Shown piece by piece: positions 201-27,710 of a stretch of 34,531 nt of DNA (position 1 is its first letter; the number at the start of each line of letters is the position of its first letter). A program made the position numbers and the translations under genes. The DNA is from Myxococcales bacterium. GTDB lineage: Bacteria; Myxococcota_A; Polyangia; Polyangiales; Houyiibacteriaceae. The notes below the pieces were generated by a model, which saw only the letters and a program-made list of their open reading frames with translations, was not told the DNA's origin and made no database searches. The stretch covers positions 1-34,531 of the forward strand of contig JAHELW010000288.1 in assembly GCA_024643985.1 (NCBI GenBank), in the 5' to 3' direction.

Positions 201-1085
201 CTATTTGGTCTTGATCTTCGGCGGCAGGGCGAAGATCAGGCCGACGGAGAACATGTTGTTGAACTGGCGGAGGCGGTCGTCGCCGTTGATTTGACCGTCT
301 CGGTTGTTGTCCGTGCCGCTCGTGTTGTACTTGAAGGGAATCCCGCGCCAGCGGAACGAGAGGCCAATGAACTCTTTGAAGAATGCGTTGAAGGCGACGC
401 CGAAGGAAGGCGCGATGGCCGTACGCTTGGCGCGGGCGCCCTGGCTCTGAAGGCAGCCGAGGTCCGTCGCGTTTCCGGCGATTTCGCAGAACGTAACTGC
501 GTCGGGGGCCGGCTGGCCAACCGCATCCGCACGTTCCTCGATTCCGACGAAGGCGGCGCCGACGAACAAGTCGATGTCGGCATCGACGAAGATCTTTTGG
601 AACATGGCGAGCTTTCCGCGGAATGGTACGAAGTGAACCTCGACCCCGGACCACCAGTTGAGGCGTCCCACTTGGTTCGGGTAGCCCTCGCGCGAGGGCA
701 GGTCCAACCGGTTCGCGTTGGTCGTGACGCCTTTGTCCCGAATCTCCTTCGTGAGGTTGGTATCGAGCGTTGCAACGGAGTAGCCGCCCCATCCACCGAT
801 GCCGAGCCAATCGAGGAAGTGAAAGCGAAGCTCGCCACCGAGGATCAGGGAGCGCGAGTACTCGTCCGCCATCGTGAATGCGAAGAAGGGCTCCACGTGC
901 AGCCTCATGTCACGCCACAGGCGCTGGTTCATCACCGCAGGCGCGTCCGCGAGCGGTCCACTCACCTGGACCGCCTGCGCGCGCACGGCGTGTTCGGCCC
1001 GAAGTCCGTCGGCCATCACGAGGCCGAGTGCGAGGGCTGCCACCAAGCTGATTCGCAAAAGCGTCTGTCGTGCGCGCATCATCAT
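201..1085 (-). CDS. Exported outer-membrane beta-barrel protein, GltA/GltB (NfsA/NfsB)-like
   Basis: The 294-residue product starts with a clear signal peptide (basic MRARQ, hydrophobic core, end near residue 36), followed by alternating aromatic/polar stretches typical of beta strands and a C-terminus rich in strand-like segments (SVGLIFALPP). The start ATG overlaps the stop of the preceding beta-barrel gene as ATGA; three consecutive Met codons (1085, 1082, 1079) leave the exact start open by two residues. Family knowledge: pairs of small porin-like barrels, GltA/GltB and their NfsA/NfsB paralogues, are outer-membrane parts of the Myxococcus Glt and Nfs complexes. The assignment here rests on size, pairing, signal peptide and the GltC/D/E/G/I-like genes 6 kb away, and not on a residue-level match. 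A generic OmpW-like barrel is the main alternative. Confidence 0.72.
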   Translation of the reverse strand: MMMRARQTLLRISLVAALALGLVMADGLRAEHAVRAQAVQVSGPLADAPAVMNQRLWRDMRLHVEPFFAFTMADEYSRSLILGGELRFHFLDWLGIGGWGGYSVATLDTNLTKEIRDKGVTTNANRLDLPSREGYPNQVGRLNWWSGVEVHFVPFRGKLAMFQKIFVDADIDLFVGAAFVGIEERADAVGQPAPDAVTFCEIAGNATDLGCLQSQGARAKRTAIAPSFGVAFNAFFKEFIGLSFRWRGIPFKYNTSGTDNNRDGQINGDDRLRQFNNMFSVGLIFALPPKIKTK

Positions 1086-1999
1086 TTCGGTAGCCTGTAT
1101 TCAAACTTGATCGGGAGGAACAAGGTGATGCCGATTTGGATCGACGTGTTGGCCACGAAGGTGGAGCCCGACTGGAGCCAAGTCGACGAATCGGCTCGGT
1201 CCACTGGGTTCGGAGCGACCCGTACGTTTTCGAACTTGTCGGGCCACATGTAGGCGCGGAACTCCGTGAAGAACGTCAGGTAGCGCGTGAGGAAGATTCG
1301 AAGCCCGAGGCCGACGTTGAACGCAACATTGGTCCGCCAGTCGAAATTGCGGATCTCTGGATCGAACACCGGAATCGGTTTCGTACGCATCAAACCAACA
1401 CCGCCGATGACGTAGGCGTCCCACTGGAAGATGGTCTTTCGGACCTTGAACTTCCCGTAGAAGGGCACGTAGGCGAAGTTGGCCCAGAAGCCGAACTGCC
1501 AGTCGTTGACCGGCACACCGAGGCGGAACTGGTTTTGGATGCGCGGGATGATATCCGTACCCCGATCGAGCGGGCTGCAGCCCGGCCTGCCTCCGCACCA
1601 GTCGTACCAGATGAAGTTGAAGCCGACCGCCAGAACGTTCGTGAACCAGTAGTTCGCGGCAAACCCAAGCCCGTACCGCTTCAGGTATGGGTCGTTGAGC
1701 GTGAAGGACGCGGACGGAGCGAGCTCGAAGCGCTTCAAGCGGAGCGCATAGATCTGCTGGACGGCGTAGATCTCCTCGGCGATTTCTTCGCGCTGAGGCG
1801 AGGGCTCCACCGGGCCTTCGGGCGCATCTTCACCTGCCGCGAGCTCCTCGATCAGATCGCCCTGACCCTTCTTTGGCGCCGGCTTGCTCTCTTCCTCCTC
1901 GACCTCGTCGAGGGAGAACTCCATCTGGGCCTGCACCGCCGACGGAAGCGCCAAGCAGAACGCCGCCATGAGTAGCGCAATCCCCCCAAAAACTCGCAT
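1082..1999 (-). CDS. Exported outer-membrane beta-barrel protein, second member of the pair (GltA/GltB-like)
   Basis: From ATG 1999 the product has 305 residues: signal peptide MRVFGGIALLMAAFCLALPS with cleavage near AVQA, then an acidic Lys/Pro/Glu-rich segment (about residues 25-75), then a beta-barrel with many Trp/Tyr/Phe strands, a Cys pair in a loop (DWCGGRPGCS) and a strand-like C-terminus (IKFEYRLPK). A TTG further upstream (2068) would bury the signal peptide behind a basic 23-residue leader, so I prefer 1999, which has GGAGG just upstream. It is translationally coupled to the next barrel gene by a 4-nt overlap. The acidic periplasmic segment could contact the periplasmic TPR proteins encoded downstream in the window (inference). 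Confidence 0.74.
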   Translation of the reverse strand: MRVFGGIALLMAAFCLALPSAVQAQMEFSLDEVEEEESKPAPKKGQGDLIEELAAGEDAPEGPVEPSPQREEIAEEIYAVQQIYALRLKRFELAPSASFTLNDPYLKRYGLGFAANYWFTNVLAVGFNFIWYDWCGGRPGCSPLDRGTDIIPRIQNQFRLGVPVNDWQFGFWANFAYVPFYGKFKVRKTIFQWDAYVIGGVGLMRTKPIPVFDPEIRNFDWRTNVAFNVGLGLRIFLTRYLTFFTEFRAYMWPDKFENVRVAPNPVDRADSSTWLQSGSTFVANTSIQIGITLFLPIKFEYRLPK

Positions 2000-2093
2000 C
2001 GGCCTCCGGCCTTCCCCCCTCGAGCGCCTCGGCCCCCACCTCGGCAACTCGCTGAAATCACGTAACAAGTGTCCGTTTCAATCGGACGACAAG

Positions 2094-2123
2094 ACTATAC
2101 CATGGCGAATCTCGCACCTCCAA
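2094..2123 (-). promoter_or_regulatory. Candidate sigma70-type promoter for the beta-barrel pair
   Basis: On the minus strand TTGGAG (2123-2118) is followed after 18 bases by TATAGT (2099-2094). Transcription would start near 2087 and give an ~88-nt leader before ATG 1999. It lies between the ftsY stop and the barrel genes and would uncouple them from ftsY. Confidence 0.45.
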
Positions 2124-2166
2124 ATCGTGTGGCGATTTTCGATGAAAGCGGCGTAGTCGCGCGGAG

Positions 2167-3417: not shown

Positions 3418-3457
3418 TCGACCTCTTACATCCCCCGATGGCCGTTGGGACGGACGC

Positions 3458-3487
3458 AATATAGAGAGGCACACACCGGGCAGTCAA
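3458..3487 (-). promoter_or_regulatory. Predicted sigma70-type promoter of ftsY
   Basis: TTGACT (3487-3482) and TATATT (3463-3458) are separated by 18 bases on the minus strand. The predicted transcription start near 3451 gives a 34-nt leader with AGAGG before the ATG at 3417. This is one of the closest consensus matches in the window. Confidence 0.6.
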
Positions 3488-3509
3488 CGCGGCTGCACGC
3501 GCGGAACGT

Positions 3510-3539: not shown

Positions 3540-3566
3540 GGAAACGCTGGGGAAGGGCGGGCGCGT

Positions 3567-4391: not shown

Positions 4392-4429
4392 CCCCCGATG
4401 AGCGATGGGCGTAGGAAGTGAGTGACGGG

Positions 4430-6551: not shown

Positions 6552-6621
6552 GGGTTTTCGCGGTGTGGGTTCTAAGTGGTTGGAAAGAGGGCGTTTGCGA
6601 GGGGGGAGACTGTCCCCCCTA
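6552..6621 (-). repeat. 70-bp intergenic repeat, copy 2 (inverted)
   Basis: Read on the minus strand from 6621 this begins with the TAG stop of the YraN-like gene and matches copy 1 (5015-5084) at 64 of 70 positions with no gaps. The six differences are scattered. Both copies therefore sit in the same orientation relative to the gene whose stop codon they include. The initial hairpin here is GGGGGA, 5-nt loop, TCCCCC. Confidence 0.85.
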
Positions 6622-6993
6622 GCGGAGAGGGAAGGACACGTTTTCGTAGTATTCGATTTGCGGCTCTCCGTTTGGGCCGTCGAAGACGACGGCGGCTGCA
6701 TCGATTCTCGCGTGGACGCGGCCGAGCTTCTGCTCGCGCAACCAAATCGCGGTTGCGCGCCGGATGCGCTGTAGCTTCTGGCGGCTGATCGTCTCGGCGG
6801 GAAACACCGGTCGCGCGCGCTTCCGCGAGCGAACCTCGCACACGACGAGGAGCGGGCCGCTTCGGGCGATCACGTCGAGCTCGAGCCGTCCGACGCGAAC
6901 GTTGCGGCCGCAAATCGTGAACCCGCGTCGTTCCAAGAGCGACGCGACGAGCGCTTCGCCGCTCCGAGCGAGCTCAGCTCTCCGGAGGTGTCG
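6619..6993 (-). CDS. YraN/UPF0102-family nuclease-fold protein, start unresolved
   Basis: The recognisable part is a YraN-type domain: a first helix (RRAELARSGEALVASLLERRG), then NVRVGRLELDVIARSGPLLVVCEVRSRK, which carries the restriction-endonuclease-like D...ExK motif as Asp plus Glu-Val-Arg, and a C-terminal helix/strand pair. YraN proteins are small, widely conserved and of uncertain role, probably nucleic-acid linked. The given right end is where homology begins, because no ATG, GTG, TTG or CTG exists in frame there. The only canonical starts are TTG 6936, which would delete the conserved first helix, and GTG 7227, which would overlap the Cys-rich lipoprotein gene by about 250 nt and add a basic Ala/Ser/Arg-rich tail. 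Possible explanations are true overprinting, a sequencing frameshift or a rare start. Confidence 0.72.
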   Translation of the reverse strand, partial: RHLRRAELARSGEALVASLLERRGFTICGRNVRVGRLELDVIARSGPLLVVCEVRSRKRARPVFPAETISRQKLQRIRRATAIWLREQKLGRVHARIDAAAVVFDGPNGEPQIEYYENVSFPLR

Positions 6994-7423
6994 CGAGCTC
7001 TTCGCGGACGCAGTAGCTTCCGCGCAAGCCGTCGCCTCCGGTCTCGAGGACTTCCTCGCACGTGAACCCGCCGGGGCACCCGCAGGTCGGAAGGCCGCTT
7101 CCGGCCGGTGCGCCGCATCGGCAGGAGCAGTAGACGCTTTCTGCGACTTCGGACGCGGTGACGCAGGTCGGGTCGGGGTCCGCCCCTTCGCACGCTTCGC
7201 TTTCGCCGACGATCTTGTTCGGGTCACCGTCTAGTTCTCGGACGAGGCAGACCCGAGTTGCGCATTGAACCGAGCTCGTCTCGAGATACGTCTCCGTGGC
7301 GAGGAACCCGCCCGCCGGTACCTGCTCCGGCACGCACGGATCGCCGACGCCGGTCCCCGAACATGCGGCGCCGAGCAGCACGACCGCCGCAAAACCCACC
7401 AATTCAAGCCATTTCCTACACAT
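6974..7423 (-). CDS. Cysteine-rich lipoprotein of unknown function
   Basis: The product of about 149 residues has a lipoprotein signal (basic CRKW, core LVGFAAVVLLG, lipobox GAAC) followed by a mature region with more than a dozen Cys, several in tight CxC patterns (YCSCRCG, TCGCPG), suggesting a disulfide-knotted surface domain like those in many myxobacterial secreted proteins. ATG 7423 is preferred over the adjacent GTG 7426 because AGGGGGG lies about 5 nt upstream. A promoter candidate is present at 7456-7485. Its 3' end overlaps the YraN-like frame, which implies coupling if both are translated. Confidence 0.75.
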   Translation of the reverse strand: MCRKWLELVGFAAVVLLGAACSGTGVGDPCVPEQVPAGGFLATETYLETSSVQCATRVCLVRELDGDPNKIVGESEACEGADPDPTCVTASEVAESVYCSCRCGAPAGSGLPTCGCPGGFTCEEVLETGGDGLRGSYCVREELATPPES

Positions 7424-7455
7424 CACGCCCCCCTAAGAAGCCCCCGGTCACCCTC

Positions 7456-7485
7456 AGCATAACGGCAATCCGAGATCGGACCCAA
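7456..7485 (-). promoter_or_regulatory. Candidate promoter of the Cys-rich lipoprotein gene
   Basis: TTGGGT (7485-7480), 18-base spacer, TATGCT (7461-7456) on the minus strand. Transcription would start near 7449 with a ~27-nt leader containing AGGGGGG before ATG 7423. Confidence 0.45.
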
Positions 7486-7620
7486 ACTTCCCCGGCCGCC
7501 CGGGGTCATACGGAAGAGTCACCGGGCAGGCCCACGCTCCTGCCTGTATTTGTCAGCTCCATGCGCAGGTTTCCAGTCTCAATTGCAGTCAGCCCGTCAA
7601 AAGCCCAATGGGACTATACC

Positions 7621-7650
7621 TTGACGACCCCTTGGGCTGCTTTCTATGAT
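7621..7650 (+). promoter_or_regulatory. Predicted sigma70-type promoter of the Glt-like operon
   Basis: TTGACG (7621-7626), 18-base spacer, TATGAT (7645-7650); each box has five of six consensus bases. The predicted start near 7657 gives a ~48-nt leader to ATG 7705. The rest of the 278-bp gap between 7424 and 7704 carries only this and the divergent lipoprotein promoter. Confidence 0.6.
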
Positions 7651-7704
7651 GGAACGCGAGCGAGCCGGAAGGGGCCGGTTTCGTTCGAATTTTTGGGGGA
7701 CTTT

Positions 7705-9342
7705 ATGAACTGGATCCGCTTCTGGGCGGTGCCTGTGTTGGTCTGGGGCCTGTGTGTAGGCGCACCGGCCGACGCGCAGGACATGAGCTTCGGTCTCGAG
7801 GAGACAGGGCAGAGCAAGGCACCCGTCAAGCTCGGCAAGCCTTCCAAGCGTCTGGCGCAGGCGCTGAGCGCGTTCGAGAGCAAGAAGTACGAGGAAGCTG
7901 CGATGGGCTTCGAGCGCGTCGCCGCAGGCAAGTCGAAGGACGGCCGCGGCAACCGCAACCGAGCTCAGTTCATGTTGGGGCAAACGCTCTACAGCATGGG
8001 TTACTACCAGTCTGCGCTCACCGTGTTCGACGACGTCAGCGCGCAGGGTCCGCGTCACCTGTTCTTCAGCGAGACGCTCGAATGGCTCGGCAAGCTCGCG
8101 TCGAAGCTGCCCGAGTCCTCCGGCATCATCGAGAAGGTCGGACGATACGGCGTCGGTGCGCTCGAGGAGTTCAAAGAGAAAGACCCCGGGCTCTACAACC
8201 AGCTCCTTTATCTGATGGGCCGGCACCTTTATTCACAGGCGTCGTTCCGGCAGGCCATCGACGTGTTTCAAGAGGTCGATCCCCGGGCCAAGCAGTACAC
8301 GTACGCGAAGTTCTTCGAGGGAATCTCCTTCATTCGCATGCGAAAGGCCCGTCCCGCCATCGCTTCCTTCCGCGCGATCCTCGAAGCGATCGATGCGGGC
8401 GACGTGAAGGGCGTCGACGAGGAGCGGATGGAAAACCTCGCTTGGATTTCCCTCGCGCGCGTCTACTACACCGCCGCCAACCAACAGAAGAAGAGCGGCC
8501 AGATCGACGGAACGCTGCTTGGGCAGTCGGTCGAGTCCTGGACCAAGGTCGAGCAGTCGAGCGAGTACTGGCTCGATTCGCTGTTCGAGTCCTCGTGGGC
8601 GTTTTTTCTGGCGGACGAGTACTCGCGCGCGCTCGGCAACGTTCACACGCTCTACTCGCCATACTTCACCGACGCGTTCTACCCCGAAGCGCTGGTGCTC
8701 AAGGCCGTCACGTTCTTCGTGAACTGCCAGGTCGACAACGCCGAGGCGACGGTCGCGAAGTTTCACGACCTCTATGATCCGGTGAAGCGCGAGCTCGACG
8801 CGGTGCTGCGGAAGCACCAGGACAATGCGGACTTCTTCGAGTTCCTCAGGAACGTACGAAGCGGGAGCGCCGAGCTGTCGCCTCGCGTTCGCCCGATCGT
8901 CTCGACTGCGCTCAGCGACCGTACCGTTCTTCAGCACCTCGAGTACGTCTCGCTACTCGACCAGGAAGAGGTCCGCCTCGAGAAGTCGGGAGAGAAGCTC
9001 AAGGGCTCGCCGATCGGTGGACAGATCCTCGAGGACATCGCACTCGCCAAAGCCTTTGCCGTCGACCAGGCCGGCGACCTGGCGCGCGGCCGGTACAAGC
9101 GGCTCATTCGGGAGCTCCGGGACCTGAGCCTTCAGGTCGATACCGTCGAGCTCGAGATCGCGACCTTTCGTCGCGGCCAGATCGATCAGGAGCTTCAACA
9201 GCAGATGACGCTCGCCAAACAATCGAGGGGCGGCGACGTCAACCCGGACGAGGAACACCAGTTGTGGCCGTTCAATGGGGAGTGGTGGCGAGACGAGCTC
9301 GGGTTCTATCGACAACAGGTGACTAACCTATGCACGCGCTAA
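7705..9342 (+). CDS. Periplasmic TPR protein, GltC-like
   Basis: From ATG 7705 (GGGGGA upstream) the product has 545 residues: a signal peptide (MNWIRFWAVPVLVWGLCVGA, cleavage near ADAQ), then helical repeats starting with a TPR-like stretch (ALSAFESKKYEEAAMGFERV), further TPR-type pairs such as FMLGQTLYSMGYYQSALTVF and HLYSQASFRQAIDVFQEV, and a long charged helical C-terminal half. It is first in an operon and overlaps the next gene by 13 nt. Family knowledge: GltC is the periplasmic TPR component that accompanies GltA/GltB in Myxococcus, with NfsC as spore-coat counterpart. The call rests on size, export, TPR content and position immediately before a GltD-like gene. The exact orthologue (GltC or NfsC) is not settled. 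Confidence 0.75.
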   Translation: MNWIRFWAVPVLVWGLCVGAPADAQDMSFGLEETGQSKAPVKLGKPSKRLAQALSAFESKKYEEAAMGFERVAAGKSKDGRGNRNRAQFMLGQTLYSMGYYQSALTVFDDVSAQGPRHLFFSETLEWLGKLASKLPESSGIIEKVGRYGVGALEEFKEKDPGLYNQLLYLMGRHLYSQASFRQAIDVFQEVDPRAKQYTYAKFFEGISFIRMRKARPAIASFRAILEAIDAGDVKGVDEERMENLAWISLARVYYTAANQQKKSGQIDGTLLGQSVESWTKVEQSSEYWLDSLFESSWAFFLADEYSRALGNVHTLYSPYFTDAFYPEALVLKAVTFFVNCQVDNAEATVAKFHDLYDPVKRELDAVLRKHQDNADFFEFLRNVRSGSAELSPRVRPIVSTALSDRTVLQHLEYVSLLDQEEVRLEKSGEKLKGSPIGGQILEDIALAKAFAVDQAGDLARGRYKRLIRELRDLSLQVDTVELEIATFRRGQIDQELQQQMTLAKQSRGGDVNPDEEHQLWPFNGEWWRDELGFYRQQVTNLCTR

Positions 9343-12300
9343 TCAGATCGAAGTACGCTGCGAGCCTTCTCTTCGGGTTGCTCGCCGTGGTGATGGGGGG
9401 CGAGGCGGCGGCGGAGCAAGCGCCGACGAGCACTGCCCCCATGTGCATTCCGCCGGATACCGAGCGGGCCATTGCCGCGTGTCCCGCGGGCGCCCGCAAA
9501 GAAGTCGCGAAGGAGGGTGGCAACGCGCCCGTTTCGCGAATGAAGGCGGCGGAGCGCAAGAAGACGCAGAGCAGCGGTCCGACCGGGCCCTCTCTTCAAA
9601 TCGACATGAGCACCCGGCTCGGTCGCGAGCAGACTCGCGCGCGCGCAGAGACCCTGCTCGAGAAAGAGATCGCGATTCTGCAGCGGCTCGTGAAGAACAG
9701 CCCTGCGGACGATCCGCGCCGGCCCGAGGTGCTGCTCCGGCTCGCGGAGACCCAGTTCGAAATGCAGATCGCAAAGACCGCCAAGGTGCGATCCTTCGAC
9801 GACCCGATCTACGAGGCGTGCACCCGGGACAAGGACAAGGCGCGCTGTAAGCAGGCGCGCGAGGGCCAGAAGGCTGCCGAGGCCGACCTCGACAAGGTGC
9901 GTTCGGACAGCATTCGAACCTACGCCACGCTCGTGCGCGACCACCCGAACTTCAAGCGCATGGACGAGGTGCTCTTCTCCCTTGCTTTCGCGCTGCAGGA
10001 GGTCGACCAGTTCGAAAAGGCGCGCTCCGTCTACAGGCGCCTGATCAAGGACTTCCCGAACAGCCGTTTCGTTCCGAACGCCTATCTCTCGTTCGCCGAG
10101 TACTACTTCAACGAGAGCGACATGGACGCCGCAGCGAAGTTCTATCGCAAGGTCGTCGAGTTCCCACCGAAGCGGAACTCGGTCTACGGCTACGCGCTCT
10201 ACAAGATCGCTTGGGTCGAGTACAACCGCGAGCGGTATCGGCAGTCGCTTCAAGGCTTCGTCGACATTCTCGAGTTCGCGCAGAAGAACAAGCACGCGAA
10301 CGACGCAAAGAACCTCGCGCGCCAGGCGCGCAAGGAGCTCGTGCTGCCATACTCGCGCTACGGCTCGCCCGGTAAGGCGCTCTCGTTCTTCCGCCGGTAC
10401 GCTCGAAACGACGCCGAGGCACACGAGATGCTCGAGAACCTCGCGGAGCTCTACTACGACACCGGCCAGTGGCCCCAGGCGATTACCGTCTACCACAAGC
10501 TGATGGCCGATTCGCCGCGCAGCAATTCGCTTTGTGACTGGCAGACCAAAGTCACCAACGCCGTCATCTCGTCCCGGCCGAAGCAGGATCAGATCGTCGA
10601 GCTGAAGCGCCTGGTCGACGTCTACAGGACTTTCAAGAAGGGCGGTAAGCCCCCGGCCAAAGTCCAGGCGTGTAAGGCCGAGACCGCCACGACGATGCTC
10701 TGGCTAGGCACTTCCTGGCATCGCGAGGCAATTGGCACCGACTCCGCCCCCGGCACCAAGAACAAAAAGACGATGTCGCAGGCAGCCGTCCTCTACCGGA
10801 CTCTCCTCAAGGAGTTCCCGGACATGGAGCGGATGGAGTTCCCGAACATCGACGAGCGCGACTGGCCGACCAAATACAAGATCTCGTATTTCTACGCGGA
10901 GCTGTTGTGGAAGATGGAAGAGTGGGGCCAGTGCGGACCCGCTTTCGATCACGTCGTCGAGCTCAATCCGCAGGGCGAGCTCACGAGTGACGCCGCGTAT
11001 GCCGCGGTGCTCTGCTACAACAACCTCTACCAGCAGCAGTACGTGCCGCGTGAGACGAAGACGAAGTTCGTCAGCCGCACGGACCAGAAGGCGATGAAGA
11101 ACGCCAAGGCGCAGCCAAAGAGCGAGTTCGCGCCGAAGAAGCTCACACCGCTCCAAGAGGGCATGCTCGAGGCCTTCAACCGCTACGTCTGCTACGTCGA
11201 CAAGGCGGACGACCTCGCCACGATCAAATACCGCCGCGCCCGCATCTACTACGAAGCGAATCGCTTCGAGGAGGCAGCGGTGCTGTTCCGCGACATCGCG
11301 TTCAATCACAAGGACAGCGAGCTCGCCGAGTACGCGGCAAACCTCTATCTCGACTGCCTCAACATTCTCGGGACGCAGGTCTCCCAGCCGAGAGTTGCCT
11401 GCGTGCAGGAGTTGAGCGCCTCGATCGACCCGATGTCGGCGTCCTTCTGCGGGACCGAAACGCTCGCCGAGGAGCATCCGGACCTCTGTGGGACGCTGAG
11501 CACGCTTCAGTGCCAGGTGCGGCGCAAGGAGGCGGAGATCTATCAGAAGACCGGCGAGTTCAAGAAGGCCGCCGCCACTTACGTTCGAATCTTCCGCCGC
11601 CACGAGGAGTGCGGCGAGATGGACGAAATGCTCTACAACGCCGCCATCAACTTCGAGGCGGCACACCTGCTCGGGCGCGCCATTCAAGTTCGCAGCGTCC
11701 TGATCGAGCGGTATCCGCAAAGCCAGCTCTCGAAGAAGGCGGTCTACCTCATCGGGCAGAACTTCCAGGCGCTCGCCTACTACGAGCAGGCTGCGAAGTA
11801 CTACGAGCAGTTCGCAAAGAAGTTCCCCGGCGAGGACGGCACGAGGTGCAGCGCCGAGGACAAGAAGAACGGCACCTGTCCGAATGCGATCGAGGGTCTC
11901 GAGCAGGCCACGTTCTTCCGGATCGGCCTCGGTGACGACAAGACCGCGATTCAAAACTCCGATCTCTTCGCGAAAAATTATCGGCGCAAGCTGCCTCGTC
12001 AGACCTCGCAGGTGTTCTTCTCGATCGGCTCGATCTACGAGCGCCAGCAGCGGTGGCTTCAGGTCATCACGCACTATCGCGAGTACCTCAAGAAGTACGC
12101 CAAGGTCGGGATGCCGCATCAGGTGATTCAGGCGCACACGGCGATCGGTCGAGCGCTCTGGGAGCTCAACCGGAAGAGCGAGGCCAGGTCGAGCTTCACG
12201 GCTGCCGTTCGAGCATGGGCGTCCGGGGCTCCGAAGCGGATCTCGGCTCTGAAAGCGTCCAAGGGGGACAAAGTGCTCTACCTCCGTCAGGCGCTCGACA

Positions 12301-12944
12301 GCGCAGCGGAGTCACAGTTCTACCTCTCCGAGTTCAAGTTTGCCGATTTCGAGAAGGTCGCGTTCCCGCAGTACCGTGGCGGAAAGAGCATGGCGCGCGT
12401 GAAGAAGTGGTCGGACACCGAGTTCAAGAAGTGGGTCAAGCGCAAACAGTCGGCTCTTCGCGCCGCCGAAGCCGACTACGCCAAGGTCGCGAGGATGACC
12501 GTCAACGCCGGCGGCGTTCAGATGAAGTCGGCGCCCTGGCAAATCGCAGCCGCGTCGCGAACCGGTGAGATGTACCGGAGCTTCGTCGACGAGTTCCGCG
12601 ACGCGCCGATCCCGCGTGAGATCGAACGGGACCCGGAGCTCTACGACATCTACGTAGGCGCGCTCGACGACGTCTCCGAGCCCCTGCAGCGCCAGGCGGT
12701 CGACAAGTTCGAGTTCTGTTTGAAGACGGCAACGCAGGTGCGCTGGTTCAACAAGTGGTCTCGCGCATGTGAGCACGAGCTCAACGGGCTCAATCCGACG
12801 AAGTACCCGGTCGCAGCGGAGCTTCGCGGCGCGCCGAATTACGTGAAGGCCACCGTCGGCGAGCCGGGTGTGGTCGACCTCGGCGCGATCAATCAGCAGC
12901 GCCTCAACACCGAAGATGCGGTTGCCAAGAGGGAGGGACCGTGA
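9330..12944 (+). CDS. Large periplasmic TPR protein, GltD/AgmU-like
   Basis: The 1204-residue product begins with a signal peptide (SKYAASLLFGLLAVVMGGEAAA) and consists largely of TPR and TPR-like helical pairs, e.g. YATLVRDHPNFKRMDEVLFSL, YRRLIKDFPNSRFVPNAYLSF and YRALYKIAW-type helices. The middle contains extra Cys residues that could form disulfides in the periplasm. Family knowledge: GltD (AgmU) of M. xanthus is a periplasmic TPR protein of about this size, part of the trans-envelope gliding complex; NfsD is its sporulation paralogue. ATG 9330 lies within the end of the GltC-like gene (13-nt overlap) with AGGTGA about 7 nt upstream, so the two are probably translationally coupled. Its stop overlaps the next gene's start (TGATG). 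Confidence 0.8.
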   Translation: MHALIRSKYAASLLFGLLAVVMGGEAAAEQAPTSTAPMCIPPDTERAIAACPAGARKEVAKEGGNAPVSRMKAAERKKTQSSGPTGPSLQIDMSTRLGREQTRARAETLLEKEIAILQRLVKNSPADDPRRPEVLLRLAETQFEMQIAKTAKVRSFDDPIYEACTRDKDKARCKQAREGQKAAEADLDKVRSDSIRTYATLVRDHPNFKRMDEVLFSLAFALQEVDQFEKARSVYRRLIKDFPNSRFVPNAYLSFAEYYFNESDMDAAAKFYRKVVEFPPKRNSVYGYALYKIAWVEYNRERYRQSLQGFVDILEFAQKNKHANDAKNLARQARKELVLPYSRYGSPGKALSFFRRYARNDAEAHEMLENLAELYYDTGQWPQAITVYHKLMADSPRSNSLCDWQTKVTNAVISSRPKQDQIVELKRLVDVYRTFKKGGKPPAKVQACKAETATTMLWLGTSWHREAIGTDSAPGTKNKKTMSQAAVLYRTLLKEFPDMERMEFPNIDERDWPTKYKISYFYAELLWKMEEWGQCGPAFDHVVELNPQGELTSDAAYAAVLCYNNLYQQQYVPRETKTKFVSRTDQKAMKNAKAQPKSEFAPKKLTPLQEGMLEAFNRYVCYVDKADDLATIKYRRARIYYEANRFEEAAVLFRDIAFNHKDSELAEYAANLYLDCLNILGTQVSQPRVACVQELSASIDPMSASFCGTETLAEEHPDLCGTLSTLQCQVRRKEAEIYQKTGEFKKAAATYVRIFRRHEECGEMDEMLYNAAINFEAAHLLGRAIQVRSVLIERYPQSQLSKKAVYLIGQNFQALAYYEQAAKYYEQFAKKFPGEDGTRCSAEDKKNGTCPNAIEGLEQATFFRIGLGDDKTAIQNSDLFAKNYRRKLPRQTSQVFFSIGSIYERQQRWLQVITHYREYLKKYAKVGMPHQVIQAHTAIGRALWELNRKSEARSSFTAAVRAWASGAPKRISALKASKGDKVLYLRQALDSAAESQFYLSEFKFADFEKVAFPQYRGGKSMARVKKWSDTEFKKWVKRKQSALRAAEADYAKVARMTVNAGGVQMKSAPWQIAAASRTGEMYRSFVDEFRDAPIPREIERDPELYDIYVGALDDVSEPLQRQAVDKFEFCLKTATQVRWFNKWSRACEHELNGLNPTKYPVAAELRGAPNYVKATVGEPGVVDLGAINQQRLNTEDAVAKREGP

Positions 12945-14230
12945 TGCGAATTCACAGCGTAGCGCTCATGGGCATGGCCTTCGTCGTCGCATGCGGCGGC
13001 GGAGGGGAGAGCACGGGAAGCTCGAGGACGACCGCGGCGCCGGCCGCAGACGTGGCGCGCACCGTAGGCGGAGAAGCGATCATGACCGCGGACGGAAGCG
13101 CGGTCAGCAAGAAGGCGCACAGCAAGTGGGAGTCGGCGCTCGACGACTTCGAGGCGAACGAAAAGAGCGGCTGGACCTCCGCGAAGTGCAGCTCGTCGGC
13201 CAAGTCCTTCGAGCGCGTGTCCGACGCCCAAGGCGGCGGTTTCGCCGAAGCCCACTACATGGCCGGGCTCGCCCTGTCACGATGCGGCGACTCGGGCGCA
13301 TACGACCACTACGAGCGGGCCCTCAAGGTCGACTCGAAGTTCTGCAAAGCGCGCGTTGCGCTCGGCCTTCGCGACCTCGAAAATGGGCGAACCAGAGACG
13401 CGAAGAGCGCGTTCGAGCGTTCGATCAAGGACGATCCGCAGTGCACGTCCGGGTACACGAACCTCGCCATCGTCCAGCGGTCGGAGGGCAACAACGCCGA
13501 GGCCCTCAAGAACCTCCGGCGCGCACTGGCGATCGAATCCGACTACCTCGCCGCCTTCAACCAGATGGCGTTGCTTCACTACGATCGGGGCCGTGCCGGC
13601 AAGCCCGCAGAGCTCGACCTCGCCGAGGTCGTCTGCAGGCAGGCACAGATGCTCGATGCCGACTACGCGCCGATCTACAACACCTGGGGCCTCATCAAAG
13701 TGTTCAAGGGCGACGTGATTTCGGCGCTTCGGTATTTCCAAAAAGCCATCACGCTCGATCCCGACCTCTTCGAGGCCCAGATGAATTTCGGCGGCGTGAC
13801 GATTTCCTTCCGCGGCTATCAGGACGCCCGAAAGGCCTTCGCGACGGCCGTGGCGCTCGAACCGGAAAGCTATGATGCCGTGGTCGGCCTCGGCACCGCG
13901 CTGCGCGGTCTCGGTCAGTTCGGCGAGGCGCAGCGTCAATACGAGCGCGCCAAGCAGATCGATGGAGGCCGGCCCGAGGCCTACTTCAACCTCGGTGTGC
14001 TCTATCAGGACTACATGTCGGGCTCCGTGGCGGACCTCAAGCAGGCGAAGGGCTTCTTCAACGAGTTCCTAAGGCGGGCAGGCAACCGCGCCGAATTCCG
14101 ATCGAGCGTGAAAGACGTGAGCACCCGGTGCGCCCAGAAGCCGAGCAAGAAGCGCGGCGCGCCGAGGTGCCGACCGGGCCGCATGCAGAACATCGACATC
14201 TCGATCGAGGCCATGCAGGTGGCGGGCTAA
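12944..14230 (+). CDS. TPR lipoprotein, GltE/AglT-like
   Basis: From ATG 12944 the product has 428 residues: a lipoprotein signal ending in VVAC followed by a Gly/Ser spacer (GGGGESTGSS), and from about residue 60 a series of TPRs (GLALSRCGDSGAYDHYERAL, NLAIVQRSEGNNAEALKNLR, NTWGLIKVFKGDVISALRYF, GTALRGLGQFGEAQRQYERA, NLGVLYQDYMSGSV). The tail is basic. Family knowledge: GltE (AglT) is an outer-membrane TPR lipoprotein of the Glt complex, encoded directly after GltD. The start overlaps the GltD-like stop (TGATG) with GGGAGGG about 6 nt upstream; a GTG three bases earlier is the alternative. Order, lipobox and TPR content together support the call. Confidence 0.8.
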   Translation: MRIHSVALMGMAFVVACGGGGESTGSSRTTAAPAADVARTVGGEAIMTADGSAVSKKAHSKWESALDDFEANEKSGWTSAKCSSSAKSFERVSDAQGGGFAEAHYMAGLALSRCGDSGAYDHYERALKVDSKFCKARVALGLRDLENGRTRDAKSAFERSIKDDPQCTSGYTNLAIVQRSEGNNAEALKNLRRALAIESDYLAAFNQMALLHYDRGRAGKPAELDLAEVVCRQAQMLDADYAPIYNTWGLIKVFKGDVISALRYFQKAITLDPDLFEAQMNFGGVTISFRGYQDARKAFATAVALEPESYDAVVGLGTALRGLGQFGEAQRQYERAKQIDGGRPEAYFNLGVLYQDYMSGSVADLKQAKGFFNEFLRRAGNRAEFRSSVKDVSTRCAQKPSKKRGAPRCRPGRMQNIDISIEAMQVAG

Positions 14231-14239: not shown

Positions 14240-14509
14240 GTGGATTACAGGCTTTCTAAGTTCATTGCACAAACCCTCGTATTCGTTGCACTCCTTGCCG
14301 GAGTTTCCATGCTCTCGCTGCCCGCGGCGGCGCAGGACGGGCCTCCGTCCGAGACGACCTACGACTTCGAGGATGACCTCGTGACCGGTGACCTCGTTCG
14401 CCCGGATGGCGAGCAGCTGATCGTTCGGCGCCGCGGCCGACGGGCGTCTCTGATTCAGATTCGAGAGCACTTTATTCCCGAGATGCTGAAATCTGTGGAA
14501 GATTTGTAA
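14240..14509 (+). CDS. Small exported protein in the GltF/NfsF position
   Basis: This 89-residue protein starts at a GTG with a textbook AAGGAGG five bases upstream. A signal peptide or anchor (TLVFVALLAGVSMLSLPAAA, cleavage near AQ) is followed by an acidic stretch (TTYDFEDDLVTGDLVRPDG), a basic cluster (IVRRRGRRASLIQIR) and a C-terminus HFIPEMLKSVEDL. The mature part is about 55 residues. It lies between the GltE- and GltG-like genes, the slot of GltF/NfsF in Myxococcus; I make the link by position and export only. The charge segregation suggests a linear linker or regulator that binds a partner. Gaps of 9 and 12 nt to its neighbours place it firmly in the operon. Confidence 0.75.
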   Translation: MDYRLSKFIAQTLVFVALLAGVSMLSLPAAAQDGPPSETTYDFEDDLVTGDLVRPDGEQLIVRRRGRRASLIQIREHFIPEMLKSVEDL

Positions 14510-14521: not shown

Positions 14522-16564
14522 GTGACTGAAACGAGCCACAATACGTCGGTCGCGTTTTCCATCTACGATGGCGAGCAGCTGATCGGGAATGAGACGCTGA
14601 GTCAGGAGATCATCAAGATCGGCCGTCTGGCGACGAGCGACGTTCGTCTCGAAGATGACAAGGTCAGCCGCATGCACGCGGTGATCGAGGTGACCGCGCC
14701 CGGGGAGGTGTTCATCATCGACCTCGGCTCTGCGTCCGGCACGCTCGTCAACGGCGAGAAGATCAACAAGCGGAAGCTCCAGACCGGCGATCAGGTGCAA
14801 GTCGGCAACAAGCAGCTGCACGTCGACATCATCACCGGCACGGTGGCTGTCGCGTCGAGCCCGCCCGTGGCGATGGCGGCAGGGGCGGAACGCGCCACTC
14901 CAGTCGTCGACGAAACCGCGATGACCGCCATGCTCGACGAGGAGTCCGAGCCGCGCGCGAAGGCGCAGACGAAGCCCGCCGCCGAGCCCGAGGACGACTC
15001 CGGTCCCAGATTCAATCCTTTCGAGGTCGGCGCCAAGCGCAAGTCCCGAACGCCTTTTGCTTCGGCGGCGACAGTCGCACAAGAAGAGGGCGCCGTGTAC
15101 GGGCTCGTGGCGACCGCACCGGCGGTCCCCGCCCACGAAATCGAAACCAACGAGCGCGCCATCGAGGTGTCCGTCCTTTGGGGCGATCGCAACGTGCTCA
15201 ACGTCGACTATCTCAATCCGCCCCGCGACTATTTCGTGGGAGAGCCGACGAGCGACGAAGAAGTCGACTACATCCTCGGTCACGACGCCATCGGCGTCGA
15301 CCGGATGCCGCTCTGCGTCGCTGAAGGGGCCGGCGTGACCGCCGTCATTCCCGAGGGCGCCAAAGGGGAAGCCACGATTGGCGACCAGACTCGCTCCTTC
15401 GACTTGATGCGGGGGCAGGGCGATTTTCGCGAGAGCCGGAACCTGCGCGGTGCGTTGGAGTGGCCGATACCCGAAGGCGGCTCGGTGCGCGTGAAGCACC
15501 GCGACTTCACGTTCATCGTGAAGGACGTCAAAGCGGGCAAAAAGGTCGCAGGACACGCGAGGCCCGACGTTCGGCCCATGATCTACGTCGCGGGCGCGGC
15601 GCTCTTCGCGAGCCTCGTGCTCACGATGTTCTATTTCCAGCCTCCGCGGCCGAGAGGGCTTTCCTCCGACCTGCTGAGCACCGACTCCCGCCTAATTCAA
15701 TTCCTGATGGAGCCAGACGAGCTCGAGGAGCCGGAGCCCGAGTGGCTCAACGGCGCGGATTCTTCCGGCGGCGGCACCGGCAAAGCCCACGAGGGTGAGC
15801 AGGGTCAGATGGGCGATGAAACCGCCGAGAAGACCAAGAACAAGTACGGCATCGAGGGCCCCGAGGACAACCCGGACCCGCAGATGGCACGAGAGCAGGC
15901 GAAGGAAGAAGCGGGCAACGCCGGGATCATCGGCACGCTTGCGTCCATGCAGGGCTCGTTCAACTCGCCCACGTCGCCCTACGGCGCGGACTTCGCTCTC
16001 GGCAACGACCCGGCGAGCGCTCTCGGCGCGATGACCGGCAACGACATCGGCCAGAACTTCGGGTTCGGCGGGCTCGGTCTGCGCGGGACCGGCCGCGGCG
16101 GTGGCGGTATCGGGCAGGGCACGATCGGCATGGGCAACTTCGGCACCATTGGTCGCGGCGGCGGCCGAGGCGCGGGTGAAGGCGGCTACGGCCGCGGCGT
16201 GGGCGGCTTTCGCGGCCGCTCGGGTGGCGTTCCGCAAGTTCGAAGCGGCGGGGCCGAGGTTCGCGGCTCGCTCTCGAAGGAAGTCATTCGCCGCGTGGTG
16301 CGACGCCACATCAACGAGGTGAAGTTCTGCTACGAGCAGCAGCTCAACGCGCGTCCCGACTTGCAGGGCCGTGTGACGACTCGCTTCGTCATCTCGCCAA
16401 CCGGCTCGGTGCAGTCGGCGATGGTGGCGAGCTCGAGCCTTCGAAACGAGGCCGTCGAGAGCTGCATCGTTCGCGCCGTTCGCCGGTGGACCTTCCCGGC
16501 GCCAGACGGCGGGGGCGTGGTGGTCGTCAACTACCCGTTCCTGCTCGACGCTGCAGGCCAGTGA
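14522..16564 (+). CDS. FHA - TM - Gly-rich - TonB-like C-terminal protein, GltG/PglI-like
   Basis: The 680-residue inner-membrane protein has an N-terminal FHA phosphothreonine-binding domain (about residues 20-105: IGRLATSDVRLEDDKVSRMH with the conserved Gly-Arg, Ser-Arg-x-His, and later SGTLVNG), a cytoplasmic linker, a single TM at about 352-372 (MIYVAGAALFASLVLTMFYF), a periplasmic acidic then Gly/Arg-rich region (about 490-575) and an AgmX/PglI-type TonB C-terminal domain (about 585-680, including RRVVRRHINEVKFCYEQQL and RRWTFPAP). Family knowledge: GltG (PglI) and NfsG share exactly this architecture and are thought to span the periplasm and connect the inner-membrane motor with the outer-membrane part. 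GTG 14522 has GGGGG 6 nt upstream. A strong hairpin follows the stop, so the operon probably ends here. Confidence 0.87.
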   Translation: MTETSHNTSVAFSIYDGEQLIGNETLSQEIIKIGRLATSDVRLEDDKVSRMHAVIEVTAPGEVFIIDLGSASGTLVNGEKINKRKLQTGDQVQVGNKQLHVDIITGTVAVASSPPVAMAAGAERATPVVDETAMTAMLDEESEPRAKAQTKPAAEPEDDSGPRFNPFEVGAKRKSRTPFASAATVAQEEGAVYGLVATAPAVPAHEIETNERAIEVSVLWGDRNVLNVDYLNPPRDYFVGEPTSDEEVDYILGHDAIGVDRMPLCVAEGAGVTAVIPEGAKGEATIGDQTRSFDLMRGQGDFRESRNLRGALEWPIPEGGSVRVKHRDFTFIVKDVKAGKKVAGHARPDVRPMIYVAGAALFASLVLTMFYFQPPRPRGLSSDLLSTDSRLIQFLMEPDELEEPEPEWLNGADSSGGGTGKAHEGEQGQMGDETAEKTKNKYGIEGPEDNPDPQMAREQAKEEAGNAGIIGTLASMQGSFNSPTSPYGADFALGNDPASALGAMTGNDIGQNFGFGGLGLRGTGRGGGGIGQGTIGMGNFGTIGRGGGRGAGEGGYGRGVGGFRGRSGGVPQVRSGGAEVRGSLSKEVIRRVVRRHINEVKFCYEQQLNARPDLQGRVTTRFVISPTGSVQSAMVASSSLRNEAVESCIVRAVRRWTFPAPDGGGVVVVNYPFLLDAAGQ

Positions 16565-16772: not shown

Positions 16773-17642
16773 ATGCGAGCTCAGGCAGTCGGGTTTGTGT
16801 TGGTGGGTCTAATCCTGATGGGCGGCAATTGTTCGCGCGCCCGCGTCGAATCGATGAACGAGATGAACGCCGGAGTCGAGCTCGCGCAGATGAAGCGGTT
16901 CTCCGAGGCGGCGGACAGCCTCGAAAAGGCCGCCGCGATCGATCCGACGAATCACCAGGCCTACTTCAATTTGGCGATCGTTCGGATCGAGCTTCGGTCG
17001 TTTTCGGCGGCCCGAGAAGCGCTCGAACGTGCGATCATCGCCAAGCCGGATACGGCTGGCTACCACGAGAAGCTCGGCACGGTGCTGATGGAGCTCGAGG
17101 ACTGGAAGGGCGCAGTGTCTGCTTTCGAGTCGGCGCTCGAGCTCGATCCGTCCCTTCACAAGGCGCACTTCAAGCTCGGACGCTGCAGCGAGGAGCTCGA
17201 GGACCCGCAGAGCGCGCTTCACCAGTACACGGCCGCCATCAAGACGGGGCCGCGCTTCCTGCCGTCGTATTCGGCGCTCGGACGCCTCTACGCGGACCTG
17301 AAGTATCCGGACCACGCGGCGCAGGTTCTCAAGGAAGCCTTCAACGTCGCGATGCCCGGGACCGAGGAAGAAGCCAACATCCACCATCTTCTTGGGACCG
17401 TCTTTCAGCAGCAGCGAAAGTACGACGAGGCCATCGCCGAGTTCCAGGCTGCGCTGGCGATCGTGCCCGGCATGTCAGACGCGCTGTTTTCACTCGGCTG
17501 GACCTACGCGCTCCAGGGCAACGACGAGGAAGCCAAGCGCTACCTCGACAAGTACGTGATGATGGCGGGCACCGATGCCCCCGACCATTACTTGAGAGCT
17601 GCGCGTGACCGTCTCGCAGAGTTGAGGACCGAATCGCCGTAA
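16773..17642 (+). CDS. TPR lipoprotein
   Basis: The 289-residue product has a lipoprotein signal (AQAVGFVLVGLILMGGN, lipobox MGGNC) and then about six TPRs covering nearly the whole mature protein, with canonical spacing (VELAQMKRFSEAADSLEKAA, NLAIVRIELRSFSAAREALE, LGTVLMELEDWKGAVSAFES, LGRCSEELEDPQSALHQYTA, LLGTVFQQQRKYDEAIAEFQ, LGWTYALQGNDEEAKRYLDK). It has its own promoter and a strong Shine-Dalgarno, and lies 15 nt upstream of the giant TPR gene. In M. xanthus the gene between gltG and gltI is gltH, predicted to be a barrel; this protein is clearly not a barrel. It resembles PilF/Tgl-type or GltE-type outer-membrane TPR lipoproteins, which assist assembly of envelope machines. Confidence 0.82.
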   Translation: MRAQAVGFVLVGLILMGGNCSRARVESMNEMNAGVELAQMKRFSEAADSLEKAAAIDPTNHQAYFNLAIVRIELRSFSAAREALERAIIAKPDTAGYHEKLGTVLMELEDWKGAVSAFESALELDPSLHKAHFKLGRCSEELEDPQSALHQYTAAIKTGPRFLPSYSALGRLYADLKYPDHAAQVLKEAFNVAMPGTEEEANIHHLLGTVFQQQRKYDEAIAEFQAALAIVPGMSDALFSLGWTYALQGNDEEAKRYLDKYVMMAGTDAPDHYLRAARDRLAELRTESP

Positions 17643-26600: not shown

Positions 26601-27710
26601 GAAGCCTTCAAGATGGCCTCCGCGCTGAAGCCGGACGACGCGATGGTGCACGAGATTCTCGCCGAGCTCTACGCGACCATGCCCGACAAGACCGACGAGG
26701 CGATTGTCGAGCACCAGTGGTTGCTTCAAAGCGACCCGAATCGGCTCGACTCCTACCGCGCCCTCTACAAGCTCTACTTCGACGCTCGCGCATACGACAA
26801 AGCCTGGTGCATTGCGCGGACGCTGAGCTATTTCCAGAAGGCCGACGAGGAGCAACAGAAGTTCTTCCAGCAGTACCGGCAGGACCGCGAAATCCAGCCA
26901 ACCACGCGTCTCAGCAACGAGAACTGGGTCAAAGACCTGATGCACGTCAATCAGGACATCTACATCTCCAAGATCATGGAGGTGATTGCGCCGGCGGTCC
27001 GCGCGTCGCTCGCAGTTTCCGACAAGAAGCTGAATCTGCACAAGCGCAAGCCCGAAGACCTCGCCAACCCGAGCCTCGCGCTCGCCAGGCAGTTCAAGCT
27101 CGCTCTGGACGTGCTCAACGTCAGCATCCCGGTTCGGTTCTACATCCAGAAAGAGCTCTCGGGCGCGCTTCGCGACGAGGCACGTAGCAATCCGCCTGCC
27201 ATCGTCACCGGCTACACGCTTCTCTCGGGCTACAGGCCCGTCGACCTCGCCTTCGTGTGCGGGCGCCACCTCACGTACTACCGGGGCGAGCACTTCATCC
27301 GCACGATGTACCAGTCCCATACCGAGCTGAGGACGCTGCTTCTCGCAGCGATGCGGCTCGTCGGGATGGGTGGCGGCGATGCAAGCGTCGAATCGACTGC
27401 AAAGCAGCTGGCGAAATACATGGATCAGCCGTCCCTCGACGTTCTGAAGAAGGTGGTGCGCAAGTTCGTCGACGCGGGCGGTCAAGCCGACATCAAGCGT
27501 TGGATGCAGGCGAGCGAGGTCACGGCTCTGCGAGCCGGGCTGCTCCTCTGCGACGACGTGGACACCGCGGTGCGCATGACGCAACAGATCCCGTCCGAGA
27601 CGACGGCCGACCTCGCGCCACGCGACAAGGTCAAGGAGATCGTGCTCTACAGCATCTCGGAGAGCTACTTCCGTCTTCGAGAGCAGCTCGGGATCCAAAT
27701 CAAGGTCTAG
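17658..27710 (+). CDS. Giant cytoplasmic TPR scaffold, GltI/AgmK-like (3350 residues)
   Basis: No signal peptide or TM is visible, so the protein is probably cytoplasmic. Residues ~70-3075 consist of about 40 units of ~72 residues, each two TPR-like hairpins of the form AIxxYxxVLxxDPxxxxALxxLxxLY...WxxLxxVLxRxxE, separated by turns such as GDPE or DDAE. Several units are longer by ~17 residues and are followed by a variant unit starting with AF (for example near residues 390, 690, 1000, 1370 and 1600), giving a higher-order pattern. The last ~275 residues form a distinct non-TPR domain with the conserved-looking segment GRHLTYYRGEHFIR. Family knowledge: GltI (AgmK) of M. xanthus is a cytoplasmic TPR protein of several thousand residues in the gliding complex. 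The coding frame is intact. Functional identity with GltI is inferred from architecture and context. Confidence 0.85.
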   Translation: MSEEQSGDEVRELTAEETAELEKLDDAIAKFEQQKRWSDMIRSILKKADLVQEPAEKVELFRTAGTLYLERSSNQAEAIKCFEQLLEYDASDVDAIERLKQMYEKRRDWEKLIRTMQREVELLPEDDRLLRYNEMAELATQRLRKPAVCIELWQKVLQGDPENPTALSNLAQLYERAREWEPLADVLETLVASDTDVTSMKQQLQKLGMIYADKIGNDEGAIGAFKKLLELDPSDRRAQEQLKRRYVSLGAWDELEAFYAANEKWDELIRIVERQAEAQETSPDDKIALLFRAARLWEDKKGKPDRAARVYEKILSADGDNVQAAEALTPIYEEAHDARKLVSVLEVRFAHAAETSAKVELLGKIGHVFEERLRQPEVAFERYLEAFSLAPSHDDARTDVERLAEELNGWDRLVSGFERAIEAVADPNQAVPIRLSYGQTLTQLDRIDEAVEQFRLVYDLESDNLGAISALGELYLRTERHRDLLDIYARQIELEQDPEVRLDVSYRRAQVFAEALDDSDRAIDAFEAIIDEYGVEQSRACQALEELYEAESRWQELSQLLERRIEAGPDSHEEIAALKFRLGRVCESQIRDKSRSVDLYREVLSIMPEHDGARERLEQLLEDSDVAAEASRVLEPVYEMSESWMQYVNALRVQHRFSTEPQQRLALLTRVADTYFQHIGDGERGFVSLCEAFREVPSDAATLQRLELLATENDLFEAVADLTADLAASVEDVALSRSLWIKTAQIHETQLMDVEAAVASYRKVLEADSGDFEVLGALDSLYRGAQRWHDLAGVLRARAEAHSDPDDKIGVLAEMARIHADLLDEPEQAIALQNEILELDPTNRGALSALDELLARQGLWSDLADNVERQLSMTDDAEEQTALLLRLADIREERMGSTDSAIEIYRDVLSSDASNPAALGALERLLESSEHQAAVAEILEPIYRDGGAASRLVDVYEIQANHATAPERRLELFHEIAKLQEFSLSDLHGAFESYARAFREDPGHPQSRDELERLSAAVGAYDALAGVYEQVVTATDDPELAIGLLLRAAEIREDDLGQLDRAIEHYEHVLRLDEEHQTSADALERLFQQSERYDELAGVYRRKARMLPSAVDQREQLVKAAAIYEDILDKPSEAISAYQQVLEVDPEDVESIDRLIELQTQLGKWSALLETYERKTEVVSDPSVRKELYTAMGRVHESQLDDAEKAIDAYQRALEIDPDDLAALAHLDALFAETEHWRDLLQVLERQAELVAADDERIELRFRIGELWRRHLEDPTRAIEIYRDTLVEVPQHQPTLEALTAMANGGVEPLAAAEALEEVYLGAGEYRNLADAREVRVRFTEDAADRVEMLQQLAEIYEIQLEDLPAAFGAFARALPLDVRNDLTLSSLERLAEQTGRWHEVASRYDEEVQKKREEFPEEVVHLAKRSAVVNEVHLDDVDAAISRYQLVVSVDPSDVVAIEALDRLYEQTERWDDLAATLQLEAAVATTPEDVLNLQFRTGQLFQNELGNVESAIAQYREILAAAPEYSPAVSALEELFASGVRPLEVGEVLEPLYRMQGNWDQLLNVQEVQVQHQSDPIERVVMMHRLAEIAEEKADDHGRAFSWMQRALLEDPSHDHSLGEAERLSAIVDGWTDLATTYANGIQHTEDSLSKAELGRRLAKVYEEQLHDLERAEETYRFVLGVDDHDEDALVALDRIYSEHGAHRALVQVLRKRIEGSNISSELIELHFRLGTVLEQNLGSTDSAIEVFSRLLDQHDSEHAPTIRSLQRIYANLERWPELFAAFEKELSIALGDSQQADVFARMARLSSNRLRDQEKAIGLWQRVLDLRGEDPEALNALGDIYAGQGNWRDLVDVLEREAAIAEEDSFRVQVYSDLARVWYEKLERERNAIENWERVLDIDPGNTYALFSIAEIQRAGGQSRERADTLHRIIDVGAATLEDADLITVYMQLGHIYANELGQPHDAAEAYRSVLNIDPACFEALDSLELIFREENDWEEVIDVMEQRALALFDPQDKVRQLIAVTEMWEREVGDKDRASGAFARILEADPMHEYAFSELQGLHREAERWDELIDLYVTRIEATEDRDERIELLRAAARVYEEHLGDGEQAYHTLYIAWTEDFANKNTAVDLERVTAANEKWNELLTSANQVLQEDSDPETQIAICLCCAKWYGQDLGHPEYAIPYYEQIRALDPSNAKAWWQLGDLYETTHQWDKLAQALAKLVELTSDDEVKANTYVRMGDLADDRFAMRQEAEDYYRRALQLQERHVGALEALERIYREDGRSNKLLNILERKAEAVEDVDSIVSALLQVAEAYQERFNDSNAAIENFEKAVELAPSNLNALRGLERLYTEQGRYQDLMSILEREYEVVATERERIEILMRLAEMWEQEFRKPDNAAERLEQVLDIDPLHDEALCQLERLYRTMQRWDELVRTYDRHASATSDNEDRVRIFRELGEVYATHGGDVEQAIDSYLNALNLNEHDVSSLQALAKLYERKGDFSAALDALGQLAAVVQDPAEQVSLKHRMGRILDQELGDRVSALEQFQAAVDIDPSHLPSLEAMRNIYVDSGDWVAAAKTLVLEVEHTEKDRKRSALLVELGRVRAERLDDEGGAVEAFEAASEADPDNEDAMLPLVDSYLAREQLDDAFPLLQVLVQRSDKREIDDQHRLALMLGETATKLGEANEAVDAYERAFGLDNDDSVALKGLAGSCFRAGRWDDSFKHHQVLLVQHRDALGRDEITELYYRLGVVKREQGEDKKARNMFDKALEEDTHFVPALEAMIGLQSAEGDWTSVVEYKKRILDVADEPAFRAKLLVELGGLWQEKLGDPEAAAEAFTEALDLEPDNHVVLHKLLVTYQAAERWSEAIDVIERVSELEERNDAKAKYSYTTGVILRDKLEDEDAALERFNEALDLDSTQLKPFEAVNKLLNTRKDWKALERAYRKMLHRIINQGNTDLEHNLWHTLGIIYRDRQRNFDAAAEAFKMASALKPDDAMVHEILAELYATMPDKTDEAIVEHQWLLQSDPNRLDSYRALYKLYFDARAYDKAWCIARTLSYFQKADEEQQKFFQQYRQDREIQPTTRLSNENWVKDLMHVNQDIYISKIMEVIAPAVRASLAVSDKKLNLHKRKPEDLANPSLALARQFKLALDVLNVSIPVRFYIQKELSGALRDEARSNPPAIVTGYTLLSGYRPVDLAFVCGRHLTYYRGEHFIRTMYQSHTELRTLLLAAMRLVGMGGGDASVESTAKQLAKYMDQPSLDVLKKVVRKFVDAGGQADIKRWMQASEVTALRAGLLLCDDVDTAVRMTQQIPSETTADLAPRDKVKEIVLYSISESYFRLREQLGIQIKV

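Follow-up and report, generated by a model that had tools for sequence, protein, structure and literature searches.

Glt- and Nfs-type systems and the locus studied

The closest described relatives of the locus studied here are found in Myxococcus xanthus, in which the Agl-Glt machine is encoded in clusters G1, G2 and M1. The M. xanthus Nfs system (G3) is a paralogous A-H set in one cluster with the same type of motor; it is published as lacking both GltI and GltJ, and the split between glt and nfs is viewed as a recent duplication (PMC3858216). A further core set (G4), located next to mglA, has a paralogous C-D-E-F-G order. In Anaeromyxobacter, homologues of G1 and G2 were reported in 2011 to be grouped in one region (PMC3169522).

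We analyzed a window of 34,531 nucleotides (contig JAHELW010000288.1 of assembly GCA_024643985.1, hereafter C134) from a Myxococcales bacterium. It belongs to a 3.52-Mb metagenome-assembled genome (MAG) of 288 contigs, with a completeness of 80.6% and a contamination of 5%. An earlier note made from the DNA letters had listed two beta-barrel proteins, GltC-, GltD- and GltE-like proteins, a small exported protein in the GltF slot, a GltG-like protein, a tetratricopeptide repeat (TPR) lipoprotein and a giant GltI-like protein in this window, and had favored a Glt-type over an Nfs-type machine. We compared the window with the genomes of M. xanthus AM003 and Archangium lansinium, which were found by a GltC scan and from which the Glt, Nfs, G4 and G5 sets were extracted. 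The labels G3 (Nfs), G4 and G5 were given by gene content and position; the M. xanthus G4 label denotes the set beside mglA, and the Nfs label denotes the next-best scoring complete C-D-E-F-G set.

As in the Agl-Glt system of M. xanthus, homologues of GltA, GltB, GltC, GltD, GltE, GltF, GltG and GltI were present in the window, and AglRQS, GltJ-like and MglBA proteins were encoded elsewhere in the genome. However, gltC was joined to gltD-I in the window, whereas M. xanthus gltC lies with gltK-B-A; the barrel genes were located beside ftsY on the opposite strand, the GltJ-like gene was unlinked, and a TPR lipoprotein gene was found between gltG and gltI where M. xanthus has gltH and the agmV-region open reading frame (ORF). 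The Glt cluster of another MAG (G002, contig JAADFL010000025.1) shared the gltC-D-E-G-TPR lipoprotein-gltI order but had two additional genes just upstream of gltC, one for a barrel and one for a CglB-like VWA lipoprotein (L099:6094-7752), as well as a GltJ-like gene directly after gltI. The likeness to Anaeromyxobacter covers the grouping and not the exact order. The Nfs set fell outside the Glt clade, and the orthologue of G4 in this genome was a set on contigs C31 and C259 rather than the window locus. The locus is a genuine Glt-type locus with a gene order ordinary for the phylum.

Motor, GltJ-like and Mgl genes and the probable function

We consider it likely that the products of the locus make up the trans-envelope transducer of a surface motor of the Agl-Glt type, for which the most likely use is gliding. 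The individual genes were identified, they were orthologous to Glt rather than Nfs, their order was conserved in relatives, and motor, GltJ-like and mglBA genes were found in the same genome. Analogy with M. xanthus supplies the mechanism, the topology of the proteins and gliding as the phenotype. On this model, inner-membrane GltG would couple to the proton-driven AglRQS motor, whose genes are on a different contig, and GltI would act as a cytoplasmic scaffold linking GltG and the motor to the MglA/MreB side. Links in the periplasm and anchored in the outer membrane would be provided by GltC, GltD, GltE, GltF and perhaps the extra TPR lipoprotein, and force would cross the outer membrane by way of the GltA/GltB-like barrels.

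Two divergent ExbB-ExbD-ExbD trios were found side by side on contig C47 (L018 16-3967). In M. xanthus, two of the eight ExbB-type loci are such trios, one of which has the published AglRQS lengths of 245/162/194 aa. The plus-strand trio of C47 was closest to M. xanthus AglRQS (AglR 49%, AglQ 29%, AglS 30%) and the paralogous minus-strand trio paired with the other M. xanthus trio, a one-to-one pattern; the aspartate D28 of AglQ has a counterpart in the C47 AglRQS orthologue trio. A GltJ-like protein with a zinc ribbon, a GYF-like segment, a transmembrane (TM) segment and an AgmX tail was encoded on contig C53 (NF033761, E=6e-31, 108 bits; cut-off 450). Contig C97 carried mglB-mglA, with MglA 77% identical to that of M. 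xanthus. The earlier note had stated that no AglRQS motor and no GltJ are present, which holds within the window and fails for the genome. The published expectation is that AglRQS together with GltA-G marks a potential glider (PMC3169522), and this genome carries both; as predicted from sequence, its Agl-Glt-Mgl gene set is near-complete.

The earlier note had also raised the possibility that a second complete glt set elsewhere in the genome accounts for gliding. A second core set was indeed found, with gltC2-D2 on C31 and E2-F2-G2 on C259 (L030, L020); the two contigs overlapped by 186 bp at 99.5% in blastn, and the exact-match test gave 0. This set clustered with the M. xanthus G4 set in the trees and was located beside Wza-like and nucleotide-sugar genes, and it may be a polysaccharide-linked machine. 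Because the second core set is of the G4 type, the window locus remains the glt candidate.

A Glt-family machine could also serve a purpose other than gliding, such as the movement or deposition of a polysaccharide at the cell surface, in the way that Nfs acts on spores. The same motor serves Nfs in spore-coat assembly (PMC3858216), and related core complexes occur in bacteria that are not known to glide (PMC3169522). GltH-like genes (only the two window barrels were compared) and CglB-like genes (one distant query) were not found, and no search was made for GltK (CglC). However, the window proteins lie on the Glt side of the phylogeny, GltI and a GltJ-like protein, both published as missing from Nfs, are encoded, and the polysaccharide-export genes of this genome are linked to the G4-type set and not to the window locus. 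We therefore regard a non-gliding use as rather unlikely and retain gliding as the probable function. Several points weigh against gliding or the assignment underlying it, in addition to the core complexes of bacteria not known to glide. The source organism is an uncultured MAG known from sequence alone and, with 5% contamination, a foreign origin is in principle conceivable for the contigs on which the motor, GltJ-like and mglBA genes were found. In M. xanthus, full gliding requires GltH and GltK (PMC3169522), and a single distant VWA query, taken from G002 and run with no positive control, gave no genome match to a CglB-like gene; to claim that GltH, GltK and CglB are absent from the genome would go beyond these tests. 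Finally, the Nfs branch in the trees is long, and the exact position of Nfs is less sure than the support values suggest.

Phylogeny of the Glt-type set and age of the glt/nfs split

Trees were built from concatenated GltC-D-E-G under LG+G4 and LG+C20 with posterior mean site frequencies (PMSF), and support is given as ultrafast bootstrap/Shimodaira–Hasegawa-like approximate likelihood ratio test (UFBoot/SH-aLRT). The window, together with loci of its own order, its own class and other Myxococcota classes, formed the sister group of a clade that held the Glt loci of Myxococcaceae, G002 and a further locus (L122). The joint Glt clade was supported at 99/98 in a careful tree, with Nfs outside, and the exclusion of Nfs was repeated in two further trees at an SH-aLRT of 97-99. 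In none of the three trees did the window proteins group with M. xanthus Nfs.

The order of the genes alone does not decide between the two systems, as NfsA-H are also encoded in one cluster (PMC3858216); the window could on that ground hold an Nfs-type (sporulation) set or a mixture of Glt and Nfs. This is very improbable, and we rejected it on the trees and the model scores. The window protein scored 284 bits against the GltC model, compared with 206 bits for the GltC paralogue of the M. xanthus Nfs set, and the corresponding values for GltG were 400 and 337 bits; in addition, gltI is present. As judged from these comparisons, the window set is Glt-type and not Nfs-type, and the preference of the earlier note is borne out by the tree support, the scores and the GltI homologue. 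The hidden Markov model searches and the phylogeny of the C, D, E and G proteins that it had called for likewise place the proteins within the Glt family.

A clade of glt and nfs restricted to Myxococcaceae was rejected by the approximately unbiased (AU) test, with p=7e-6 when distant outgroups were included and p=0.0036 when they were not. These sequence data provide good evidence for a glt/nfs split that predates the recent duplication described in the literature, but the evidence is not final because the Nfs branch is long. The new result points to a separation of the glt and nfs machines before the divergence of Myxococcia from the other sampled classes, in conflict with the recent-duplication view.

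The matches of GltC, GltE, GltG and CglF to the NCBIfam gliding models were strong but below the equivalog cut-offs. The cut-off for GltC was passed by only one of the 284 sampled Myxococcota genomes; therefore, this result reflects a narrow GltC cut-off and not foreign proteins, and the NCBIfam cut-offs were of no use here as the sole test of membership. Most loci of this kind fall below the curated GltC cut-off and will be missed by name-based annotation.

Gene order across Myxococcota

Almost every locus sampled from this Glt subclade, across several Myxococcota classes, had C-D-E-F-G-lipoprotein-I as an uninterrupted run. Where contigs reached, the same C-to-I order was observed in genomes of the same genus and family, in the sampled families of the order and class, and in other classes, and it was kept in many families whose proteins are 25-60% identical. 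A single-contig genome of the same order (10,327,335 bp) showed the same arrangement as the window. The exceptions were two highly divergent loci, G195 and G005, without the lipoprotein and GltI, as well as G040, without GltI; scattered missing calls of GltF or GltG in single genomes most likely reflect the limit of the simple gene caller. Adjacency of the barrels to ftsY was confined to the own class. Among the named loci, those of Myxococcaceae showed barrel-barrel-gltC without an adjacent gltD, and several other Myxococcota joined the barrels and C-D-E-F-G.

The earlier note had set the one-locus arrangement against the split loci of M. xanthus and suggested that it may be ancestral. The arrangement is not unusual, as a single gltC-to-gltI locus is common in the sampled Myxococcota; an ancestral state gained support, because this commonness and the grouping known from Anaeromyxobacter (PMC3169522) suggest that the single locus is probably ancestral and the split in M. 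xanthus probably derived. On this view, the gltABC/gltDEFGHIJ layout of M. xanthus would be derived and the single gltC-to-gltI locus would be the common state of the phylum. Although TPR proteins cross-match widely and neither GltD nor the TPR lipoprotein is matched by a dedicated family, the idea that generic TPR, FHA and barrel genes lie together by chance, without common function, is refuted by the synteny conserved over many families and by matches outside the TPR regions (the GltI C-terminus, the end of GltC, GltF and GltG), and has practically no probability left.

A conserved lipoprotein between gltG and gltI

Outside Myxococcaceae, a TPR lipoprotein occupied the same slot in the sampled Glt-clade loci whose contigs extend to it. 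In 13 aligned copies, the start codon being uncertain in a few, an N-terminal Cys region was followed by a C-x-R-x-R...MNxG motif and then by the TPR body. A whole-genome profile search of M. xanthus AM003 and Archangium lansinium detected generic TPR proteins only and no full-length counterpart. The best three Myxococcaceae TPR matches were inspected as possible orthologues, and none aligned from the N-terminal Cys region.

In both Myxococcaceae genomes, the slot was filled by gltH and an ORF of 627 or 645 aa. These ORFs, located between gltH and gltI, were similar to each other (L216:15952-17832 on the minus strand in M. xanthus AM003, 627 aa; L223:16143-18077 on the minus strand in Archangium lansinium, 645 aa). 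MXAN_4864/65 (agmV) of the same region were dismissed as probably not genes, and the published GltA-K set does not include this TPR lipoprotein (PMC3169522). We tentatively suggest that the lipoprotein could be an ancestral transducer subunit, found in most Glt-bearing Myxococcota; Myxococcaceae would have lost it and would have GltH and the AgmV-region protein in its place. We hold this with less than even confidence. If it is true, the model organism shows a derived machine. One new point is an unstudied conserved lipoprotein in the glt locus that has no counterpart in the gene set of the model Myxococcus.

Layout of the window and identity of its proteins

All genes named in the earlier note were recovered in the order given there by family models and by pairwise and profile comparisons (Table 1).

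Table 1. Glt-related and Mgl-related features of the window
Feature	Position	Strand	Evidence
GltA-like outer-membrane beta-barrel (OMP1)	201..1085	-	TIGR04565 E=5.7e-10; GltA-family profile (Myxococcaceae) E=2.5e-22, prob 99.5
GltB-like outer-membrane beta-barrel (OMP2)	1082..2068, start uncertain (likely near 1969-2000)	-	TIGR04565 E=5.4e-14; GltB profile E=1.3e-37
GltC-like exported TPR protein	7705..9342	+	NF033756 E=2.1e-84; C-terminal GE[YW]WRDELG motif invariant
GltD-like exported large TPR protein	9330..12944	+	Archangium GltD E=7.6e-84; synteny in relatives
GltE-like TPR lipoprotein	12941..14230, start 12941 or 12968	+	NF033758 E=6.3e-28
GltF/CglF-like small exported protein	14240..14509	+	NF033764 E=7.6e-17; M. 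xanthus GltF 54.7 bits, 38%
GltG-like FHA/TM/TonB-C-like inner-membrane protein	14522..16564	+	NF033760 E=2.3e-119, NF033768 E=1.9e-33
Conserved TPR lipoprotein, between gltG and gltI	16773..17642	+	same slot in relatives; conserved Cys and motif
GltI-like giant cytoplasmic TPR scaffold, 3350 aa	17658..27710	+	M. xanthus GltI 26% over 3421 columns
MglA-family GTPase paralogue, N-terminus cut by contig end	34351..34531	+	52% over 60 aa to M. xanthus MglA

The genes from gltC to gltI formed a compact plus-strand run (7705-27710) with overlaps or gaps of 9-15 bp, the one larger gap (208 bp) preceding the lipoprotein gene. The barrel pair (201-2068) adjoined ftsY. Because the barrels are on the opposite strand, approximately 5.6 kb from gltC with at least six genes between, the barrels and the gltC-gltI run are not one operon. 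The interval contained ftsY and genes for a HEAT protein, a HAMP protein, two SRPBCC-like proteins, a yraN-like protein and a small lipoprotein, the SRPBCC, YraN and small-lipoprotein names being our reading of the sequences. In many genomes from several classes, gltC was directly preceded by a yraN-like gene, often with a small lipoprotein gene (6619-7426 in the window).

The start of gltC was placed near 7705 by coding score, the ORF having originally been called at 7258-9342. GltD and GltI, which no dedicated family model matched, were identified by direct comparison with Myxococcaceae; alongside the Archangium GltD match, GltD matched M. xanthus NfsD at E=1.6e-63. The C-terminal region of GltI alone matched M. 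xanthus GltI over 470 aa (99.8 bits, E=6e-27), and by this comparison the giant gene is a true GltI homologue. GltG carried an AgmX/PglI tail (NF033768, 2e-33) and an FHA domain (PF00498, 4e-18). OMP2 matched M. xanthus GltB pairwise (72 bits, E=5e-19), and neither OMP1 nor OMP2, the only barrels compared with GltH, gave a convincing match to it in profile comparison. OMP1 appears GltA-like and OMP2 GltB-like, an assignment that is soft because both families match each other.

Downstream of gltI, the window contained tsaE, carB, greA and recG (named by sequence), followed by the start of the MglA-family GTPase gene. This fragment is distinct from the full MglA of the genome, which is encoded with mglB on C97.

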